Assembly (NCBI RefSeq): GCF_000964005.1
Contig: NZ_JXYP01000021.1
Location: 1 to 64,000, forward strand
Reading direction: 5' to 3'
Length of the DNA: 64,000 nt
Source of the DNA: Williamsia herbipolensis
Lineage (GTDB): Bacteria; Actinomycetota; Actinomycetes; Mycobacteriales; Mycobacteriaceae
The position numbers were made by a program, and so were the translations under genes. Position 1 is the stretch's first letter, and each line of letters opens with the position of its first letter. Shown here piece by piece: positions 52,076 through 61,587 of this stretch. Under the pieces are notes generated by a model. It searched no databases. It saw only the letters and a program-made list of their open reading frames with translations, and had not been told where the DNA came from.

Positions 52076-52149
52076 GCCCCCGTAGCCCAATTGGCAGAGG
52101 CAACGGATTCAAAACCCGTCCAGTGTCAGTTCGAGTCTGACCGGGGGCA
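52076..52149 (+). tRNA. tRNA with CAA anticodon (Leu by anticodon), short variable loop
   Basis: A 74-nt cloverleaf: acceptor stem GCCCCCG/CGGGGGC (seven perfect pairs), D arm with a 3-bp stem, anticodon arm ACGGA-TTCAAAA-CCCGT (last pair A-C mismatched), 5-nt variable loop, and T arm GTCAG-TTCGAGT-CTGAC. The anticodon is CAA, read as Leu(UUG). Bacterial tRNA-Leu normally has a long class II variable arm, which is missing. CCA is not encoded (ACC then C). tRNA identity is therefore less certain than the cloverleaf itself. Confidence 0.8.
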
Positions 52150-52205
52150 CCCAGGCCGGCGGGCCGCGCGGACCGCATCCGGACTCCCATCGCCTCCGAG
52201 GCGGA

Positions 52206-53674
52206 TCACTCCCTGTCCTTGCTCCGCCAGCTCCGTTCGAAGGGCAGACGCCACGCGTGCGGCGCGATGAGCTGGTGGATCGCATTCGGACCCCACGACC
52301 ACGGGCTGTAGCTGCGCACCGGTGGCGGATCGGCCAGCAGCGGCGCCGACACCTCCCACAGTCGCTCGATGCCCTCGGCCGTCGTGTACAGGGTCCGGTC
52401 GCCCTTCATGGCGTCGAGGATCAGCCGTTCGTAGGCCTCGAGGACCAGGCCGGCATGCTCGTGCTCGCCCATCCCGAACTGCAGGGCTGAGCTTGTCGAG
52501 CTTCATCCCCGGACCGGGCCGCTTGCCGTAGAACGACAGCGACACCTTGAACACGTCGGCGAGGTCGAAGGTCAGGTGGTCCGGACCGTGTTGTCCCACA
52601 CCGGATCCCTGGGGGAACATGCTCTTGGGCGGTTCACGGAACCCGATCGAGATGATGCGTTGGCCCTCGGCCAGGCATTTCCCGGTGCGCAGGTAGAACG
52701 GGACGCCGGCCCATCGCCAGTTGTCGATACCGCACTCCAGTGCGATGAACGTCTCGGTCTCCGATTCGGGCGCGACGCCCGGCTCATCGCGGTAGCCGAT
52801 GTACTGCCCGCGCACCACGTCGTGCGGGTTCAACGGTTTCATCGACCGGAAGACCTTGTTCTTCTCCTCGCTGATCGGGCCGGGCGCCAACTCGGTGGGT
52901 GGTTCCATCGCCACGAACGCGAGGATCTGGAACAGGTGCGTGACGACCATGTCGCGGAAGGCGCCGGTCGATTCGTAGTACCCGGCACGACCCTCCAGCG
53001 ACAGCTTCTCCGGGACGTCGATCTGGATGTAATTGATGAAATTGCGGTTCCAGATCGGTTCGAAGAGACCGTTCGCGAACCGGAACGCGAGGATGTTCTG
53101 GGCCGACTCCTTGCCCAGGAAGTGGTCGATCCGGAAGATCTGCTCCTCGGCGAACCAGCGGTGGATCGACGCGTTGAGTTTCTTCGCACTCGCCAGGTCG
53201 GTCCCGAACGGCTTCTCCATGATCACCCGCGAGCGCTCCACGAGACCGGCCTCGTTCAGCATCTCGAGAACAGCCATCGCCGCCTTCGGCGGAACGCTGA
53301 GATAGTGCAGTACCCGCGCCGAGCCGCCGATGGTGTCCGAGGCGCGCTCGACCGCTTCGGCAAGGGCGGCCGGTCCGTCACCCTGCGAGACGTAGGTCAG
53401 CGAGTCGAGGAACTCGTCGACAACCTCCGAGGTCAGACTTCGGCTGGAGAACTCGAGACACGCCTTCCTGGCCGCGGCCCGGGAAGTCGTCGGTGGTGAT
53501 ATCGTCCAAACTCACGCCGACGACCCGGATCGCCGGCGTGAGTTTGGACATCGACAGGTGGAACAGCCCGGGGAGCAGTTTGCGTTTGGCGAGATCGCCC
53601 ATCGCGCCGAACAACACGACCACGTGCGGATCGCCGTCATCGGAGTGCTCGGGACGTTCCGCGGTGTCGATCAC
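52206..53674 (-). pseudogene. zwf: Glucose-6-phosphate dehydrogenase with two frameshifts
   Basis: Read on the minus strand, the GTG at 53674 starts a G6PD ([20 protein letters not shown]). The frame is lost at a C/G run at 53478-53483; with one base removed it continues DD-F[15 protein letters not shown]. The middle part, with active-site RIDHFLGKE and EKPFG, is intact. A second +1 shift at the run 52484-52486 breaks KLDKLS from LQFGMGEHEHAG; the C-terminus then ends at 52206. Without the two extra bases the protein would be about 488 aa, normal length. The nucleotide-binding motif reads GAMGDL. Either a recent pseudogene or two homopolymer sequencing errors. Confidence 0.85.
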
Positions 53675-53770
53675 TCGTCGATCGTCCCACCAGGGCGCTC
53701 ACACGGCACGATGAGCGAGTCGGCCACTCGCCACCACCGATGACAGCGGTCCCGCCGATGTCGTCCGAGC

Positions 53771-54352
53771 TCACGATGACGAGTTCGAACGCCCCTGCGC
53801 CGCCTCGATACCTCCGAGGATGATGTCGACCGAGGTTTCGATGACCTTGTCGTCGGGTACCTGACCGTGCATCAGCGCCGGACAGACCACCACACCCGAG
53901 AGCAGATGGATCGCCGATTCGGCGACCACGTCGTCTGCGATGCGCGCGAACATCGCGCGCGCGACACCCTCGCCGTCGGCGATCAGCCGCGTCCTGAACT
54001 CGGCGATCTCCTCCACCGAGGTGCCCCACTGCGCGAGCACGATGAGGATCCGGTCGAGCTTGATGTCGACCACGGCCGAGCGGAACGCCCGGAGTTCGTT
54101 GATGAGATCGGTACGGATGTCGCCGGTGGGCACCGAGTGCGGCATGTCGCCCAGGGCGTCGAGCGCGAGACCCACGAGGTCGATCTTCGACGGCCAGTGG
54201 GTGTACAGCGTCGTCTTCGAATACCCCGCGACGCGTGCGATGTGGGCGTGGGAGACCGCATCCCACCTCTGCTTGGTCAGGACCTCCAGAGCGGCGCGCG
54301 ACACGTCACCCCGGGTGCGCGCCACTCGCGCGTCCTCAGATGTGTCGGTCAT
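53771..54352 (-). CDS. TetR family transcriptional regulator
   Basis: A 193-aa repressor-type protein. The N-terminal HTH covers about residues 15-60 (AALEVLTKQRWDAVSHAHIA, VAGYSKTTLYTHWPSK); the C-terminal helical domain would bind a ligand. It is divergent from the MAA-type cluster, with 290 bp between start codons, so it is the likely local regulator (inference). Confidence 0.88.
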   Translation of the reverse strand: MTDTSEDARVARTRGDVSRAALEVLTKQRWDAVSHAHIARVAGYSKTTLYTHWPSKIDLVGLALDALGDMPHSVPTGDIRTDLINELRAFRSAVVDIKLDRILIVLAQWGTSVEEIAEFRTRLIADGEGVARAMFARIADDVVAESAIHLLSGVVVCPALMHGQVPDDKVIETSVDIILGGIEAAQGRSNSSS

Positions 54353-54447
54353 GTCCTCAGCTCTGTCGGTCGATGGTTCCCCTCCACTGTCTCACCCGCG
54401 TGGAGTGACGCCCTTCCACCGTCGCACGTTTTTCCGATGCAAACCTA

Positions 54448-54475
54448 TTGAACTGACAGACCGTTACTGTACTGT
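54448..54475 (+). promoter_or_regulatory. Putative promoter of the MAA-type cluster
   Basis: TTGAAC (54448-54453), a 16-nt spacer and TACTGT (54470-54475) form a plausible promoter facing the cluster. The spacer and -10 contain short inverted elements (ACAG-N7-CTGT) that could be a TetR operator. The remaining leader to the ATG at 54643 (about 160 nt) shows no other gene. Confidence 0.4.
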
Positions 54476-54642
54476 TGGATCAGAAGCAACGGGTCTGGCG
54501 TGGAAACCCAACGGCGCCAACACCTTTGGTTTTCCCTATTGGATACGACCATTGCCATCGTCCCACGCGCCGGCCGCCGGGACCCTCTCTTTCGGGTCCG
54601 TACCGCCGCCCACTGCTCTCCCACACCCTTCGAAAGGCCGTC

Positions 54643-55314
54643 ATGCCCGCAATCCTGTTCGGCTCCATCAGCACCCTCGCCGACACCTCTGAACTGCAGC
54701 GTCAGGCCTTCAACCAGGCCTTCGCCGAGCACGACCTGGACTGGACCTGGACCCGGGACGACTACATCGGCATGCTCGGATCCAACGGCGGGGCCGACCG
54801 CATCGCCGAGTACGCCTCGGCACACGGTGACGATGTCGACGCCGCCGCCGTCCACGCGACCAAGTCGAGGATCTTCCAGACGCTGATCGGCGACGCCGGT
54901 CTGCAGCCCCGCCAGGGGGTCGTCGAGACGGTGCAGGCCGCGAAGTCCGACGGTGTGAAGCTCGGGTTCGTCACGACGACGTCGCGCGAGAACATCACCG
55001 CGCTGCTCGACGCCCTCGCCCCGGCCATCAGCGCCGACACCTTCGACATCATCGTCGACTCCGACAGCGTCGAGACCCCCAAGCCCGACGCCGCGGCCTA
55101 CCGCTTCGCCCTCGCCGAGCTCGGTGAGCAGGCGGGCCACGCCGTCGCCATCGAGGACAACGAGGGTGGTGTCGCCTCTGCGGGTGCCGCCGACGTCCGC
55201 TGCATCGCGTTCCCGAACGAGAACACCGCCGACGGCGACTTCGGCTCCGCCGTCGAGGTCGTCGAGGTCCTGGACTCCGCCCGCGTGCGCGAGCTCGCCG
55301 CCGGCACCGCCTGA
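54643..55314 (+). CDS. HAD-superfamily protein lacking the catalytic aspartates
   Basis: A 223-aa protein with the CbbY/phosphoglucomutase-like HAD layout. Motif I, normally LFDLDGTLxDT, reads [11 protein letters not shown], so both the nucleophile Asp and the acid/base Asp are gone. Motif II ([10 protein letters not shown]), motif III Lys ([10 protein letters not shown]) and motif IV ([16 protein letters not shown]) are kept. Phosphatase activity by the usual route is not expected; a binding or regulatory role is an inference. A GAAAGG site precedes the ATG. It leads the mys-type genes, with 91 bp before the cyclase. Confidence 0.85.
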
Positions 55315-55405
55315 CCTCCACCTCTCCCGCCACACCCTTTTCGCCACACCTTTTCCCTGCCGAACCGCCGCCGACCTCGCGCGGCACACATCCTGGAGCA
55401 CCACA

Positions 55406-56617
55406 GTGAGCAATCTGCAAGCACAGGTCACCTCGACCGACCGCGCCTTCCACGTCGAGGGTTACGAGAAGATCGAATACGACCTGATCTACGTCGACGG
55501 CGTGTTCGCCGTCGACAACACCGAACTGGCCGACAGCTACCGCCCGTACGGTCGGGCGCTGATGGTCATCGACGAGACCGTCCTGTCGCTCTACGGCGAC
55601 GCCATCCGCACCTACTTCGACCACCACGGGCTCGATCTCACGGTGGTGCCGGTGCAGATCCGCGAGACCGCGAAGTCGTTGGAGACCTTCGAGACCATCG
55701 TCGGCGAATTCGACGCGTTCGGTCTCGTCCGCACCGAGCCGGTCCTCGTCGTCGGTGGTGGCCTGACCACCGACGTCGCCGGGTACGCCTGCGCGAGCTA
55801 CCGGCGCAACACGCCCTACATCCGCATCCCCACCACGCTGATCGGTCTCATCGACGCCAGCGTGTCGATCAAGGTCGCGGTCAACTACGGCAAGCACAAG
55901 AACCGTCTCGGCGCGTACCACGCGTCGCAGAAGGTGCTGCTCGACTTCTCCTTCCTCGCAACGCTTCCCGAGGATCAGGTCCGCAACGGCATGGCCGAGC
56001 TGATCAAGATCTCGGTGGTCGGGAACTCCGAGATCTTCGACATGCTCGACGAGCACGGTCCCGATCTCCTGCGCACCCGTTTCGGTCACCTCGACGGCTC
56101 CGCCGAGTTGCGTGCGGTAGGCGATCGACTGACCTACGCCGCGATCGCCACCATGCTCGATCTGGAGGCGCCGAACCTGCACGAGATCGATCTCGATCGT
56201 GTGATCGCGTTCGGTCACACCTGGAGCCCGACACTCGAGCTCACTCCCCCGGCGCCGTTCTTCCACGGGCACGCGATCAACATCGACATGGCGCTCTCGA
56301 CCACCCTGGCCGAGCAGCGCGGACACCTCACGGTGGCCGATCGCGACCGCGTTCTCGGTGTCATGAGTCGACTCGGCCTCGCCCTCGACAGCGAGTTCCT
56401 CACCGCCGAGCTCCTCGCCGACGCCACCGGTTCGATCCTCAAGACCCGCGACGGGCTGCTGCGCGCCGCGATCCCCGACCCCATCGGGAGCTGCCGTTTC
56501 CTCAACGACGTGACGACCGACGAGTTGGCCGACGCGCTGCAGATGCACAAGAAGCTGGTCGAGGAGTTCGATCGGGCGGGCGACGGTGTCGACATGTTCA
56601 CCGGTGCGCATGACTGA
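55406..56617 (+). CDS. mysA: Sedoheptulose-7-phosphate cyclase, demethyl-4-deoxygadusol synthase type
   Basis: A 403-aa member of the dehydroquinate-synthase-like cyclase family (GTG start). It has the NAD-binding [60 protein letters not shown] and the metal-binding region ([23 protein letters not shown]). This is the sedoheptulose-7-phosphate cyclase branch, shared by 2-epi-5-epi-valiolone synthase and demethyl-4-deoxygadusol synthase. The following mysB/C/D-type genes favour the latter, the first step to mycosporines. Confidence 0.88.
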
Positions 56618-57485
56618 TACCCACCCCGTGGAGATGTCGACACCGGCTGCGCCGCGGCCGGTCACACCGTCGACGATCCTCGCCGAGGTGGTGCGGGACA
56701 TGCGCGAGCGGCTCGAGGGGATCGACGGTCTCGATCGGTCGATCCTCGTCTCGGCGGCACGCGCCGAGGCGCTTGCCGCCGGACTCGACCCCTATCTGGA
56801 CCTGTGCACGACCGCGGAATCGGCGGCGCTGGCCGATCTCGCGATGCGCACCGCGCATCGCGACTGGGACGCGAACCCGTCGTCGATCCCCGAGGTGCGA
56901 CTCGAGCAGGAGATGCTCTCCGGCCATGTCGAGGGTCAGGCGCTGAAGTTCCTGGTGTTCGCGTGCGCCGCGCGGCGCGTGCTCGAGATCGGCATGTTCA
57001 CCGGTTACTCGGCGCTAGCGATGGCCGAAGAACTCGGCGAGGCCGGCGAGGTGGTGGCGTGTGAGATCGACGCAGACGTCGCGGCATTCGCACGCGAGTG
57101 CTTCGACCGTTCGCCGGTGGGGCGCCGGATCACGATCGAGGTGGGACCGGCGGGTGAGACCCTGCGGCGTCTCGACGACCGCTTCCGTGCCGGCGACGTC
57201 GCACCGTTCGACTTCGTCTTCATCGACGCCGACAAGCCGGGGTACCTCGGTTACCTCGACCTCCTGCTGGAGGGGTCGCTGCTCGCGCCCCGAGCCCTGA
57301 TCGCCGTCGACAACACCCTGCTGCAGGGCGAGCCCTACGCCGCCGGTACCACCGCGTCGGTGAACGGGGCGGCGATGGCGACGTTCAACGCCGCGCTCAC
57401 CTACGACGACCGTGTCGAACAGGTGGTGTTGCCCCTGCGCGACGGGCTCACCCTGATCCGGCGGGTGCCGGATCGCGCGCGGTGA
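56610..57485 (+). CDS. mysB: O-methyltransferase of mycosporine synthesis
   Basis: A 291-aa class I methyltransferase of the caffeoyl-CoA OMT-like group: motif [20 protein letters not shown], metal/SAM region [20 protein letters not shown] and [12 protein letters not shown]. An N-terminal stretch of about 50 residues ([17 protein letters not shown]) matches MysB-type proteins. It would methylate demethyl-4-deoxygadusol to 4-deoxygadusol. Its start overlaps the mysA end by 8 bp; an alternative start is the ATG at 56634. Confidence 0.86.
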
Positions 57486-58804
57486 CGTCACTGCGTGAGG
57501 CCAACGCCGCGCGCACCCTCGCGGTGCTCGCGGCGTTGACGGTGACCCTGCCGATCGATGCGGCCGTCGTGGGCACAGCCTGGGTGGTCGGTCGGCTGCA
57601 CCCTGCGCGCACGACGGATCCGGGTCCGTCCGTCGACCGGAAGACCGTGCTGGTGACCGGCGGCAAGATGACCAAGGCCCTGGCGCTCGCACGCGCGTTC
57701 CACGCCGCCGGCCACCGTGTGGTGCTCGTCGAGTCGACGAAGTACCGCTGGACCGGACACCGGTTCTCCCGCGCCGTCGACGCCTTCCACTGCACCCCCG
57801 AACCGACCGCACCCGGATACGCACAGGCCCTGCGCGACATCGTCGTCGACGAGGGCGTCGATGTGGTGGTGCCCGTGTCGAGCCCGGCGTCGAGCATCCA
57901 CGAGGCGGCCGCCCACACACTCCTCGACGAGCACTGCGAGGTCGTGCACGGCGACGAGAAGACGGTGCACATGCTCGACGACAAGGACGAGTTCTCCGCC
58001 CACGCGGCGTCCCTGGGTCTGGCGGTCCCGCACTTCGCGCGCATCACCGATCCGGTACAGATCGACGACTTCGACTTCCGTCCGGGCCGCGAGTACATCC
58101 TCAAGCGGATCGCCTACAACCCCGTGGGCCGGATGGACCTCACGCGCCTGCGACGCGAGACCCCCGAGGAGAACACCGCTTTCGCCCGCAGCCTCGGGAT
58201 CTCGCCCGACGATCCCTGGATCCTGCAGGAGTTCATCGAGGGCACCGAGTACTGCACGCACGGCACGGTGCGCGACGGGCGTCTCCAGGTGTACGCCTGC
58301 TGCGAATCGTCGGCTTTCCAGATCAACTACGAGATGGTCGACAAGCCCGACATCCGCCGCTGGGTCGAGACCTTCCTCGCACCGCTGGACCTGACGGGGC
58401 AGGCGTCGTTCGACTTCATCGAGGCCTCCGACGGCACCGTCTACGCCATCGAGTGCAATCCGCGGACGCACTCGGCGATCACGATGTTCTACGACCACCC
58501 CGGCGTGGCGGCGGCGTACCTCACCGACGACCACCCCACCGTGGTCCCGACGGCATCGTCGCGCCCGACGCACTGGATCTATCACGAACTGTGGCGACTG
58601 CTGACCGAGCGGGGACGTCGTGCACGGCTGGCGAGCATCCGGCGCAGCACCGACGCGATCTTCGACCGAGACGACCCGCTGCCGTTCCTGATGGTGCACC
58701 ACGTGCAGATCCCGTCGCTGCTGGTGAAGAACCTGCGTGCGCGACGCGGGTGGAGCCGCATCGATTTCAACATCGGCAAGTTGGTGGAGAACGGTGGCGA
58801 CTGA
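57482..58804 (+). CDS. mysC: ATP-grasp mycosporine-glycine synthase
   Basis: A 440-aa ATP-grasp protein that would attach glycine to 4-deoxygadusol. The N-terminus has a hydrophobic stretch (about 10-40: TLAVLAALTVTLPIDAAVVG). Then come KTVLVTGGKMTKALALARAF, the ATP-grasp lid/Lys region (REYILKRIAYNPVGRMDLTR), and the metal-binding end FDFIEASDGTVYAIECNPRT. GTG start overlaps the mysB stop (GTGA). Confidence in the substrate rests on the cluster. Confidence 0.85.
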   Translation: MTSLREANAARTLAVLAALTVTLPIDAAVVGTAWVVGRLHPARTTDPGPSVDRKTVLVTGGKMTKALALARAFHAAGHRVVLVESTKYRWTGHRFSRAVDAFHCTPEPTAPGYAQALRDIVVDEGVDVVVPVSSPASSIHEAAAHTLLDEHCEVVHGDEKTVHMLDDKDEFSAHAASLGLAVPHFARITDPVQIDDFDFRPGREYILKRIAYNPVGRMDLTRLRRETPEENTAFARSLGISPDDPWILQEFIEGTEYCTHGTVRDGRLQVYACCESSAFQINYEMVDKPDIRRWVETFLAPLDLTGQASFDFIEASDGTVYAIECNPRTHSAITMFYDHPGVAAAYLTDDHPTVVPTASSRPTHWIYHELWRLLTERGRRARLASIRRSTDAIFDRDDPLPFLMVHHVQIPSLLVKNLRARRGWSRIDFNIGKLVENGGD

Positions 58805-59867
58805 TCCCGTGACCGACGTGCCGAGGCGGCCCGAGCGCACCCTGGTGCTGCACCTCGTGGGGTCGCCCGTGGACGAGGCGTTCGCCGACCTGTCCCGCCT
58901 CTACGCATCGGGGTGCCTGGAGTCCCTGCGCGCCGACACGCGGTACGACAACCGGATCGCCCACGTGGCGCCGGGAGGTCGGTGGTCGTTCCCCGACGAC
59001 CTGACCCCGCCCGGGATCGCCGCGGCCGAGGAGTTCTCCGCTGCTCGGGCGTTGGAGATGATCGAGTCGTGGGGCGTCGACGTCGTCGTGCCGCAGATGT
59101 TCTGTCGACCCGGGATGACCTCGTACCGTTCGGTGTTCGACGTGCTCGGTATCGGGCGACTCGGCAACTCCGGTGAGGTGATGGCCATCGCCGCCGACAA
59201 GGCGGCCACCCGCGCGATCGTCGCGGCGGCGGGGGTCGCCGTGCCCGACGGCGAGGTGGTGCGGCGCGGCGACGCACCGACACTGTCGCTGCCGGTGGTG
59301 GTCAAGCCCGTCGACGCCGACAACTCCGACGGCGTGACGCTGGTCCGGGACGCCTCGGAGCTGCCCGCGGCCCTCGATACCGCTCTCGCACTGGGGGATT
59401 CTGCGCTGGTCGAGTCCTTCGTCGAGCTGGGGCGTGAGGTGCGATGCGGCATCATCGTCCGCGACGGTGAGCTCGTCTGTCTCCCACTCGAGGAGTACGC
59501 CGTCGATGCGGAGACCAAACCGATCCGCGATCGCGCCGACAAGCTGGCACGCTCCGACGACGGTGACCTCTTCCTCGTCGCGAAGGACGCCGACCACGCC
59601 TGGATCGTCGACGACGACGATCCGATCGTGGCGGTGGTGCACGAGGCCGCGCGTCGGTGCCACCGCGCGCTGGGGTGCCGCCACCACAGCCTGTTCGACT
59701 TCCGGATCGACCCGGAGGGCACGCCGTTCTTCCTCGAGGCGGGGCCCTACTGCTCGTTCGCCCCGGGCAGCGTGATCGCGGTCATGGCGAAGGCCGCGGG
59801 TATCGGGCTCGACGAGGTGTTCGCCATCGCGCTCGCGGAACTGCGCGCCGAACAGGAGAAACGATGA
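58794..59867 (+). CDS. mysD: D-Ala-D-Ala ligase-like MAA ligase
   Basis: A 357-aa ATP-grasp ligase of the D-alanine--D-alanine ligase group. Seen are NSGEVMAIAADKAATRAIVA, VVVKPVDADNSDGVTLV, LVESFVELGREVRCGIIV and the C-terminal FDFRIDPEGTPFFLEAGPYC. In cyanobacteria MysD adds serine, threonine or another amino acid to mycosporine-glycine, giving shinorine or porphyra-334; the residue used here is unknown. The GTG at 58794 overlaps mysC by 11 bp; GTG 58809 is an alternative. Confidence 0.85.
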   Translation: MATDPVTDVPRRPERTLVLHLVGSPVDEAFADLSRLYASGCLESLRADTRYDNRIAHVAPGGRWSFPDDLTPPGIAAAEEFSAARALEMIESWGVDVVVPQMFCRPGMTSYRSVFDVLGIGRLGNSGEVMAIAADKAATRAIVAAAGVAVPDGEVVRRGDAPTLSLPVVVKPVDADNSDGVTLVRDASELPAALDTALALGDSALVESFVELGREVRCGIIVRDGELVCLPLEEYAVDAETKPIRDRADKLARSDDGDLFLVAKDADHAWIVDDDDPIVAVVHEAARRCHRALGCRHHSLFDFRIDPEGTPFFLEAGPYCSFAPGSVIAVMAKAAGIGLDEVFAIALAELRAEQEKR

Positions 59868-60628
59868 AGCACACCGCACTGGACCCGCTGGGCGCCGAGG
59901 TGACCGGCGTCCGCGTGGGGCCGCTGGAACCCGCCGACACCGACGAGTTGCGGACGCTGCTCGCCGAGCACGGGGTGATCATCCTCCCCGACCAGGACAT
60001 CAGCGACGACGACTTCCTCGCGTTCCTGCGCAACTTCGGCGAGACGGTGTTCACCGTCGGGGAGACGCCGGTGGCGGGGCGTCCGGAGTTGAACGTGATC
60101 AGCAACGTGGGACGCTCGACCCCGCCGCGATCGCAGTTCCACGTCGACACCAGCTACGTGCGACATCCACCGGTGTACACCGCGTTACGAGCCGTCGACG
60201 TCCCCCTCGAGGGCGGTCAGACCCTGTTCAGCAACCAGTACCGGGCGTTCGAATCGTTGCCGGAGATGGTGCGTGAGGATCTGTCGGGGCGGACGGTGAC
60301 CCACGTGGTGACCGGCCTCGACCTCGACGACGACGCGGAGACGTCGGCGGTGCACCCGCTCTGCGCGACGCACCCGATCTCGGGCCGCACGGCGCTGTAT
60401 CTCTCGACGCCGCAGCGGTGTGCGGAGGTGAGTGGGCTCAGCGAGGAGGAGGCCGCCGACACGGTGGCGTCGCTCCTCGAGCACAGCACCCGTCCCGACA
60501 ACGTCCTCGCCCACCGGTGGTCGCCGAAGGATGTCGTGATGTGGGACAACCGCTGCGTGATGCACAAGGCGGACCACTCGGGTGTGGTGGGCGACCGCAT
60601 CATGCACCGCGGGATGGTGGGCGGGTAG
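59864..60628 (+). CDS. mysH: Fe(II)/2-oxoglutarate oxygenase, MysH-like (palythine-forming)
   Basis: A 254-aa TauD/TfdA-family dioxygenase. The iron triad is visible as HxD in RSQFHVDTSYV and the distal His in VMWDNRCVMHKADHSG, with the 2-oxoglutarate-binding Arg in RIMHRGMVGG. In cyanobacteria MysH converts disubstituted MAAs to palythines; place in the operon supports the same here (inference). The ATG overlaps the mysD stop (ATGA). Its last codons and stop lie in the first 26-bp tandem repeat, so the C-terminus may have been shaped by repeat expansion. Confidence 0.85.
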   Translation: MKHTALDPLGAEVTGVRVGPLEPADTDELRTLLAEHGVIILPDQDISDDDFLAFLRNFGETVFTVGETPVAGRPELNVISNVGRSTPPRSQFHVDTSYVRHPPVYTALRAVDVPLEGGQTLFSNQYRAFESLPEMVREDLSGRTVTHVVTGLDLDDDAETSAVHPLCATHPISGRTALYLSTPQRCAEVSGLSEEEAADTVASLLEHSTRPDNVLAHRWSPKDVVMWDNRCVMHKADHSGVVGDRIMHRGMVGG

Positions 60629-60712
60629 GACACCGCGGGATGGTGGGCGGGTAGGACACCGCGGGATGGTGGGCGGGTAGGACACCGCATGGTTGCGGGG
60701 GTCGGACACCGC
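60611..60712 (+). repeat. 26-bp tandem repeat, three perfect copies plus a degenerate one
   Basis: The unit GGGATGGTGGGCGGGTAGGA plus CACCGC occurs at 60611-60636, 60637-60662 and 60663-60688 without a mismatch; 60689-60712 is a 24-bp diverged copy. The first copy encodes the last residues and stop codon of mysH. There are no spacers, so it is not a CRISPR array. Confidence 0.95.
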
Positions 60713-60816
60713 CGATGATGTTCGGTCCCTGAGGTTTGGTCCGGGGAGTCGCCGGGTACCCGGTTCGCACGGGTGTCGCGGCAACGGCATCGTGGACGTC
60801 GACGTCAGAGGTGACA

Positions 60817-61587
60817 GTGCTCCTCAACCCCCTCCTCCCCTCCCACACCACGCATGTGACCGATCCGCTCGCCTTCGCGGGCGCGTCTGTGCGCGACGCG
60901 GTGGTCGCACCGCCGACAGAGGGATTGCTCCCCCACGAGTTCACGCTCGGCGATTCTGTGTACGCGCCCCAGGAGGACTCGTTCCTCCTGATCGAGGCCA
61001 TGCGGGCCGACAGCGACGCCATCGCGGGTCGGCGGGTGCTCGATCTGTGTTGCGGCAGCGGTGTCATCGGCATCGCCGCGGCCTGTCTCGGGGCGCGTGA
61101 GGTGATCGCCTTCGACATCAACCCCGAGGCGGTGCGCAGTACGGCGGTCAACGCCGCAGACGCCGGGGTCGTCGTCGACGCTCGGCAGGGCTCCATCGCC
61201 GAGGCGCTCGCCGCGGGTCCGTTCGACGTGGTGCTCAGCAACCCGCCGTACGTCCCGGCACCGGACGGTGTGGCCGGCGGGGACATGGCGGCGACCGCGT
61301 GGGATGCCGGTGCCGACGGCCGCTCGGTTCTCGATCCGTTGTGTCGCGCCGTTCCCGACCTGCTGACGGCGGAGGGGATGTGTCTGTTCGTGCACTCGGA
61401 GACTTCGGGTGTCGACACCACCGTGGCGATGCTCACCGCCGGGGGCGTGGGCGCGCAGAGCGTGGCGTCCGGGCACATCCCGCTGGGGCCGGTGCTACGC
61501 GAACGCGCCGAGTGGTTGGGTCGCCGCGGGCTGCTCCCGCCCGCGGCACAGACGGAGATGCTCGCGGTCGTCCGGGGTCGTCGATGA
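60817..61587 (+). CDS. HemK2/PrmC-like SAM methyltransferase
   Basis: A 256-aa class I methyltransferase of the HemK/MTQ2 group. It has PQEDSFLLIEAM, motif I VLDLCCGSGVIGIAAACLGA and the diagnostic NPPY catalytic motif (VVLSNPPYVPAP). Substrate may be a glutamine in a protein, but release-factor methylation is normally done by PrmC elsewhere, so the target is open. GTG 60817 has AGAGG five bases upstream; GTG 60811 is an alternative. The stop overlaps the next gene (ATGA). Confidence 0.85.
   Translation: MLLNPLLPSHTTHVTDPLAFAGASVRDAVVAPPTEGLLPHEFTLGDSVYAPQEDSFLLIEAMRADSDAIAGRRVLDLCCGSGVIGIAAACLGAREVIAFDINPEAVRSTAVNAADAGVVVDARQGSIAEALAAGPFDVVLSNPPYVPAPDGVAGGDMAATAWDAGADGRSVLDPLCRAVPDLLTAEGMCLFVHSETSGVDTTVAMLTAGGVGAQSVASGHIPLGPVLRERAEWLGRRGLLPPAAQTEMLAVVRGRR

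Follow-up and report, generated by a model that had tools for sequence, protein, structure and literature searches.

A stretch of 64,000 nucleotides of Williamsia herbipolensis DNA (contig NZ_JXYP01000021.1, positions 1 to 64,000; hereafter the window), part of a genome of 4.74 Mb, contains a cluster of genes for mycosporine-like amino acids (MAAs), in which mysA, mysB, mysC and mysD are accompanied by a gene for a HAD protein and a gene for an Fe(II)/2-oxoglutarate (2OG) oxygenase. The question that this locus raises is what the two accompanying proteins do. MAAs are wanted as natural sunscreens, and palythine formation by routes other than MysH is poorly documented in the open-licence PubMed Central (PMC) papers. 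The HAD is classed with the hydrolases in print, yet it is without the residue needed for such hydrolysis. An earlier note on this DNA had described an MAA cluster ending in a MysH-type oxygenase in a Gordonia/Rhodococcus-like organism; the host was placed close by, but it is a Williamsia. Our reading, which we consider fairly likely as a whole, is that the locus is a TetR-controlled MAA operon leading to shinorine and then, by way of a TauD-type oxygenase, to palythines, with the HAD a former phosphatase that serves as a helper or sensor.

The HAD gene (54643..55314, forward strand, start ATG) encodes a CbbY family protein. Its best solved relatives are the CbbY proteins 4uat and 4uar (E values of about 5e-35, 5.3e-35 for 4uat), the first of which is RsCbbY, described with xylulose bisphosphate and Mg in PMC10212915. 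The window HAD is like this xylulose-1,5-bisphosphate phosphatase in family, in the residues of motifs II-IV and in the cap, but the nucleophile Asp, the second Asp and the hinge His of 4uat are replaced by Gly, Ile and Gln. Motif I, which is FDxDGT in the CbbY relatives, reads FGSIST in the window HAD and lacks the required DxD.

The same replacements are found throughout the HADs linked to MAA genes. In a first set of 34 MAA-linked rows, the window's own included, position 7 is G and position 8 is S in all 34, position 9 is I in 33 and L in one, and position 19 is Q in all 34, whereas 18 relatives from outside MAA clusters have D, D and H at positions 7, 9 and 19 (18/18). These 18, together with four cyanobacterial relatives, were called outside MAA clusters because no mys gene is present in their loci of 3.2-3.7 kb. 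A second set, which overlaps the first, consists of the window HAD and the 69 HADs of 80 named loci, these being the best 80 of 434 loci in a scan of named genomes and so an uneven sample. The pattern FGS[IM][SG][TS] is present in 69 of the 70 proteins, and the remaining one (L129) has FGSIST in another frame, which indicates that its HAD frame is broken. R53, H71, K74, R90, K147, E171 and D172 are identical in all 34 MAA-linked and all 18 outside rows; we take the HAD residues discussed here to have their roles in the phosphate site, in the Mg site and as the hinge His. A tree that left out every second row of L095-L149 as well as L129 and L159 unites the MAA-linked HADs in a single clade, apart from 22 others (SH-aLRT 100). 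The AlphaFold model of the window HAD is confident, with a pLDDT of 94.5.

Because the Asp, Asp and His are missing from all MAA-linked copies compared and present in all 18 relatives, while other pocket residues are invariant, the HAD does not appear to be a classical phosphatase, and its function is probably not the one that its name implies. We lean toward the view that the HAD dedicated to MAA clusters, in actinobacteria and a few cyanobacteria, had a single origin from a CbbY-type sugar phosphatase, lost the catalytic residues and kept the pocket. Such a pathway-specific pseudo-phosphatase would, for example, sense sedoheptulose phosphate or help MysA or the TauD oxygenase, and the prediction is that it binds a phosphate compound and does not hydrolyze it. 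No PADLOC family matches either the HAD or the oxygenase, and a narrow query of the open-licence PMC papers found nothing on HAD pseudoenzymes that lack the nucleophile.

Some observations weigh against this view. Ser8 is invariant, and the HAD might use another residue in place of the lost ones. Conservation is higher in the pocket loops than elsewhere in the protein (mean entropy 0.65 over 72 positions versus 1.42 over 138 others in 68 rows, p 1e-8), but these loops were partly picked after the conserved columns were known. Related genomes are also not independent of each other. The HAD could be an active enzyme that carries out a pathway or clean-up step with another catalytic residue, for example Ser8, or with Mg bound by Glu171/Asp172. 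The low entropy of the pocket loops speaks for such an enzyme, as does the identity of G7, S8, Q19, R53, H71, K74, K147, E171 and D172 in 34/34 MAA-linked rows. No HAD that uses Ser as its nucleophile is known to us, however, and in Streptomyces albidoflavus the MysA, MysB and MysC of Rhodococcus fascians D188 alone yielded about 150 mg/L of mycosporine-glycine (PMC11284840). An active HAD is therefore somewhat doubtful. The same experiment also limits the role of a helper or sensor, since three enzymes suffice and the HAD is not needed up to mycosporine-glycine. Strain D188 is not among our loci; MysA of R. fascians A44A and NBRC 12155 is 82-84% identical to the window MysA.

Another alternative is that the HAD is a partner that the TauD oxygenase specifically requires. 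Among the 80 loci, HAD is present in 69 and TauD in 63, and every locus with TauD also has HAD (63/63), although in one of the 63 (L149) an intact HAD stands beside a broken or truncated TauD. The 16 cyanobacterial loci have either both genes, side by side (five loci), or neither (11 loci), but five of these 11 are truncated contigs. Outside the cyanobacteria, HAD is present in 64/64 loci and TauD in 58/64. Loci with HAD and without a cluster TauD are L133, L150, L161, L167 and L171, all with ample flanking sequence, L116, which is truncated, and L068 from another set. The six complete ones, that is, all except L116, also count against our own reading, and any TauD elsewhere in these six genomes is at most 35% identical. 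The strict rule that HAD occurs only with TauD was consequently rejected, and a HAD required specifically by the oxygenase is unlikely; the broader view of a helper or sensor is the one that we retain. One of the loci counted as non-cyanobacterial (L152) is titled Candidatus Melainabacteria, probably wrongly; its HAD is identical to one from a genome of the same order as the window.

The HAD and TauD pair is rare in cyanobacteria but present. The five loci that have it are from Drouetiella, Chamaesiphon polymorphus CCALA 037, Phormidesmis priestleyi and two uncultured cyanobacteria. Of 386 cyanobacterial genomes drawn evenly, 26 had mysA at E <= 1e-120, and of these only the center of the draw, a Phormidesmis (G685), has the HAD (48% identity) and the TauD (52%); the HAD matches in the remaining mysA-containing genomes are at most 36% identical and the TauDs at most 37%. 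In a tree, the mysA genes of the cyanobacteria with both HAD and TauD group with other cyanobacterial mysA genes, while their HADs (four rows) and TauDs (five rows) each form one group among those of actinobacteria, the exact placement being modestly supported. This difference suggests that HAD and TauD moved into the cyanobacterial loci together.

The second accompanying gene (59864..60628, forward strand, start ATG) encodes a TauD/TfdA-type oxygenase (Pfam TauD, 6e-54; confident AlphaFold model, pLDDT 94.3), which we propose to be palythine-forming. H93, D95, H234 and R245 are invariant in 30 aligned MAA-linked TauD rows, namely the window's own and 29 of the 63 TauD-containing loci picked for diversity; presumably these are the Fe ligands and the 2OG arginine, with roles as in TauD. 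In a tree with 18 other TauDs, the 35 MAA-linked rows group as a single clade (SH-aLRT 100). PMC10510106 describes the MysH of cyanobacteria as a phytanoyl-CoA dioxygenase, and two of our loci, L212 and L213, have PhyH proteins 2.5 kb and about 6 kb from mysA that are candidates for MysH by place and family. The window oxygenase matches Pfam TauD only, with no PhyH domain (PF05721), and has no BLAST similarity (E 0.50) to the one of these two PhyH candidates with which it was compared. The oxygenase was therefore rejected as a MysH, and the MysH-type oxygenase of the earlier note gives way to a TauD that does not group with MysH.

That note had also concluded that the organism makes palythine-type sunscreens. 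The route through MysH falls, but the product may still hold. MysI, a TauD/TfdA enzyme, is proposed to be the palythine maker in Nostoc sp. UHCC 0926 (PMC10510106), and an unpublished abstract quoted in PMC11888242 reports shinorine, palythine and palythine-serine from the operon of R. fascians D188, which has both HAD and TauD. Because of that report, palythines would be the likeliest end product of the window cluster. The case for them is built on analogy and on that unpublished abstract, and the TauD may act otherwise. For example, it could hydroxylate an MAA or use another substrate with no palythines formed, since TauD/TfdA enzymes have many substrates and the best solved matches of the window oxygenase are phenoxypropionate dioxygenases and PlaO1. 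Given the products reported for the R. fascians operon and the role proposed for MysI, we regard such an activity as improbable and keep palythine formation as our reading. A search of plasmids for similar TauDs gave matches that were all below 37% identity among the best 30 of 118. In a mysA-containing cyanobacterial genome, the locus surrounding a TauD of 34% identity (L218) showed no mys gene, and so no MysI was identified.

The earlier part of the pathway is supported by the families of the four mys products. The mysA gene (55406..56617, forward strand, start GTG) encodes a cyclase that matches 5tpr far better than 4p53 in a structure-linked search (E 1.8e-163 versus 7.2e-81). The PDB names of these two are "3-dehydroquinate synthase" and "Cyclase"; we take 5tpr to be the Anabaena desmethyl-4-deoxygadusol synthase (DDGS) Ava_3858 and 4p53 to be ValA, an EEVS. 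In a tree of 65 cyclases, made by a quick method and with long branches among the other cyclases, 58 mysA rows that include the window's and 5tpr are on one side (SH-aLRT 99), and 4p53 and four plasmid-borne sedoheptulose-phosphate cyclases are on the opposite side (SH-aLRT 98), with L082 and L083 as a third group; an earlier tree, in which only one EEVS was present and its branch was very long, had not decided the matter. By its sequence, then, the window cyclase is a DDGS and not an EEVS, and the MAA cluster proposed at the outset is supported, with none of the grouping with EEVS that had been named beforehand as evidence against it. The alternative of an EEVS in a cluster for a C7N aminocyclitol, to which the similarity of the cyclase to 3-dehydroquinate synthase (DHQS) might point, was rejected on this search and tree, and with a complete mysB-C-D set present we find it hardly credible. 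The loci of L082 and L083 (the same places as L216 and L217) have HAD, mysB-C-D and TauD, and their divergent cyclase is only 37% identical to the window MysA and still nearer to 5tpr than to 4p53.

The remaining three enzymes, an O-methyltransferase, an ATP-grasp ligase and a D-Ala-D-Ala-ligase-like ligase, are all encoded within the same operon on the forward strand. The mysB gene (56610..57485, start ATG) has a Methyltransf_3 domain (Pfam, 9.5e-43) and is 51-52% identical to mysB of two cyanobacterial mys clusters. The mysC gene (57482..58804, start GTG), for the addition of glycine, scores 413.2 bits against NCBIfam NF005315 (cut-off 406) and is 55-59% identical to mysC of two cyanobacterial mys clusters. 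The mysD gene (58794..59867, start GTG) has a Dala_Dala_lig_C domain (Pfam, 3.5e-16). These matches fit the full mysABCD set that was expected. The amino acid added by MysD had been left unknown in the note, and it can now be narrowed. According to PMC11983340, two positions of the omega loop of MysD predict the amino acid, L-A giving mainly shinorine and hence serine, a rule derived from cyanobacterial enzymes. In an alignment of 78 MysD rows to the MysD of Nostoc HK-01, which has F at position 249 and S at position 257, the window MysD has L and A at the two positions, and we predict that it adds mainly serine.

Five MAA clusters, from Mycobacterium gordonae (L113) and from L117, L143, L062 and L066, lack mysB, and mysA is directly followed by mysC. 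The best MysB-like matches in these five genomes are partial and at most 41% identical. The product of these clusters may be without the O-methyl group, or another methyltransferase may substitute.

The layout that had been noted is borne out, with a TetR gene divergent from HAD-mysA-mysB-mysC-mysD-oxygenase over 53771-60628 and with the stop of each gene from mysA onward overlapping the start of the next; with refined starts, the overlaps are 8 nucleotides for mysA/mysB, 4 for mysB/mysC, 11 for mysC/mysD and 4 for mysD/oxygenase. The HAD is present in 8/8 genomes of the genus Williamsia, the window's own included, and the gene order TetR-HAD-A-B-C-D-TauD is repeated in 7/7 same-genus relatives examined, which argues that the cluster is not a chance arrangement. 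A gene for an ANTAR regulator adjoins the cluster in 7/7 same-genus loci, so the site of the cluster is conserved as well.

The TetR-family regulator (53771..54352, reverse strand; Pfam TetR_N, 3.1e-9) keeps its position in 7/7 same-genus loci, and a putative operator, the palindrome CGTTACTGTACTG (54462..54474), is located between it and the HAD gene. Of 39 TetR-HAD intergenic regions, the window's and 38 named ones, 23 have a site with at most two mismatches to the family consensus CAGTACnGTACTG, compared with about 0.6% of 780 shuffles. With a fixed upstream region of 300 nucleotides, taken in 66 of the 69 HAD-containing loci (the window not among them), such sites are present in 21/38 loci with TetR versus 1/28 without it (Fisher p 5e-6, which ignores kinship). 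Other figures are less favorable. The pattern was chosen from the same intergenic regions and then counted in them, which flatters the comparison with the shuffles, and 17/38 TetR-containing regions miss the limit of two mismatches. The window's own site has two mismatches, and at three mismatches sites in the window are at chance level (12 found, 9.4 expected). A pattern fitted to the window's genome and its close relatives has one match in that genome, at this site, and the reversed control also has one. The palindrome tends to accompany the TetR gene, and the TetR control suggested earlier is plausible; the palindrome would be a first handle on control of the cluster.

Three features lie at the edges of the cluster. 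A G6PD-like gene beside TetR (about 52126-53700, reverse strand) is spread over three reading frames and must therefore be either broken or misassembled. Three other Williamsia genomes share the middle part of this gene at 98-99% identity but mysA at only 87%, which suggests a recent exchange. A perfect tandem repeat with a 26-bp unit in 3.2 copies (60605-60688) covers the stop codon of the oxygenase gene. Downstream, a gene for a small-domain methyltransferase (60736-61587) is matched in only 3/7 same-genus loci and so is probably outside the cluster.

From these families, the gene order and the conservation we infer the following scheme, in which the reactions would follow established MAA chemistry. 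MysA would convert sedoheptulose 7-phosphate to desmethyl-4-deoxygadusol, MysB would methylate it, MysC would add glycine to give mycosporine-glycine, and MysD would add mainly serine to give shinorine. The TauD-type oxygenase would then hydroxylate the glycine side chain, which would drop off to leave palythine-type MAAs. In the divergent promoter region, TetR presumably sits on the CAGTACnGTACTG-like site until some signal releases it. The HAD, with the nucleophile Asp, the second Asp and the hinge His of a CbbY-type sugar phosphatase lost and its other pocket residues retained, would be no phosphatase and would bind a phosphorylated or polar ligand of the pathway as a helper or sensor. If true, the HAD would be an unrecognized component in how these bacteria make or tune their sunscreens.

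How does this compare with known systems? The MysH of Nostoc linckia NIES-25 is alike in its proposed conversion of an MAA to a palythine by Fe/2OG oxidation, but it is a PhyH protein, whereas the window enzyme is a TauD without BLAST similarity to the PhyH candidate compared. In family, the window oxygenase is nearer to MysI, compared here by description only, which shares the broad TauD/TfdA family, the location in an MAA cluster and the proposed palythine-forming role. MysI differs in being located with the nonribosomal peptide synthetase (NRPS) MysE and the methyltransferase MysF, and its proposed target is the C3 glycine (PMC10510106); there is no NRPS among the seven genes of the window cluster, which has MysD instead, or among the 10 neighboring open reading frames scanned. 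The closest counterparts are the actinobacterial clusters of the GATOR-GC study (PMC11888242) and the R. fascians D188 operon, which have the same DHQS-like cyclase, O-methyltransferase, ATP-grasp ligase, D-Ala-D-Ala ligase, HAD and TauD. That study already describes HAD and TauD as conserved among the MAA clusters of actinobacteria; the gene set is therefore a known one, and the window cluster fits a TauD-type route common to many of them, with serine predicted for MysD. The study calls the role of the HAD unvalidated, the accessible text of it makes no mention of a lost nucleophile, and it states that HAD and TauD are absent from Cyanobacteriota, whereas five cyanobacterial loci here carry both. 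What is added to these known systems is the loss of the HAD motif in the MAA-linked copies, the HAD and TauD pair in five cyanobacterial loci and the palindrome that tends to accompany the TetR gene.

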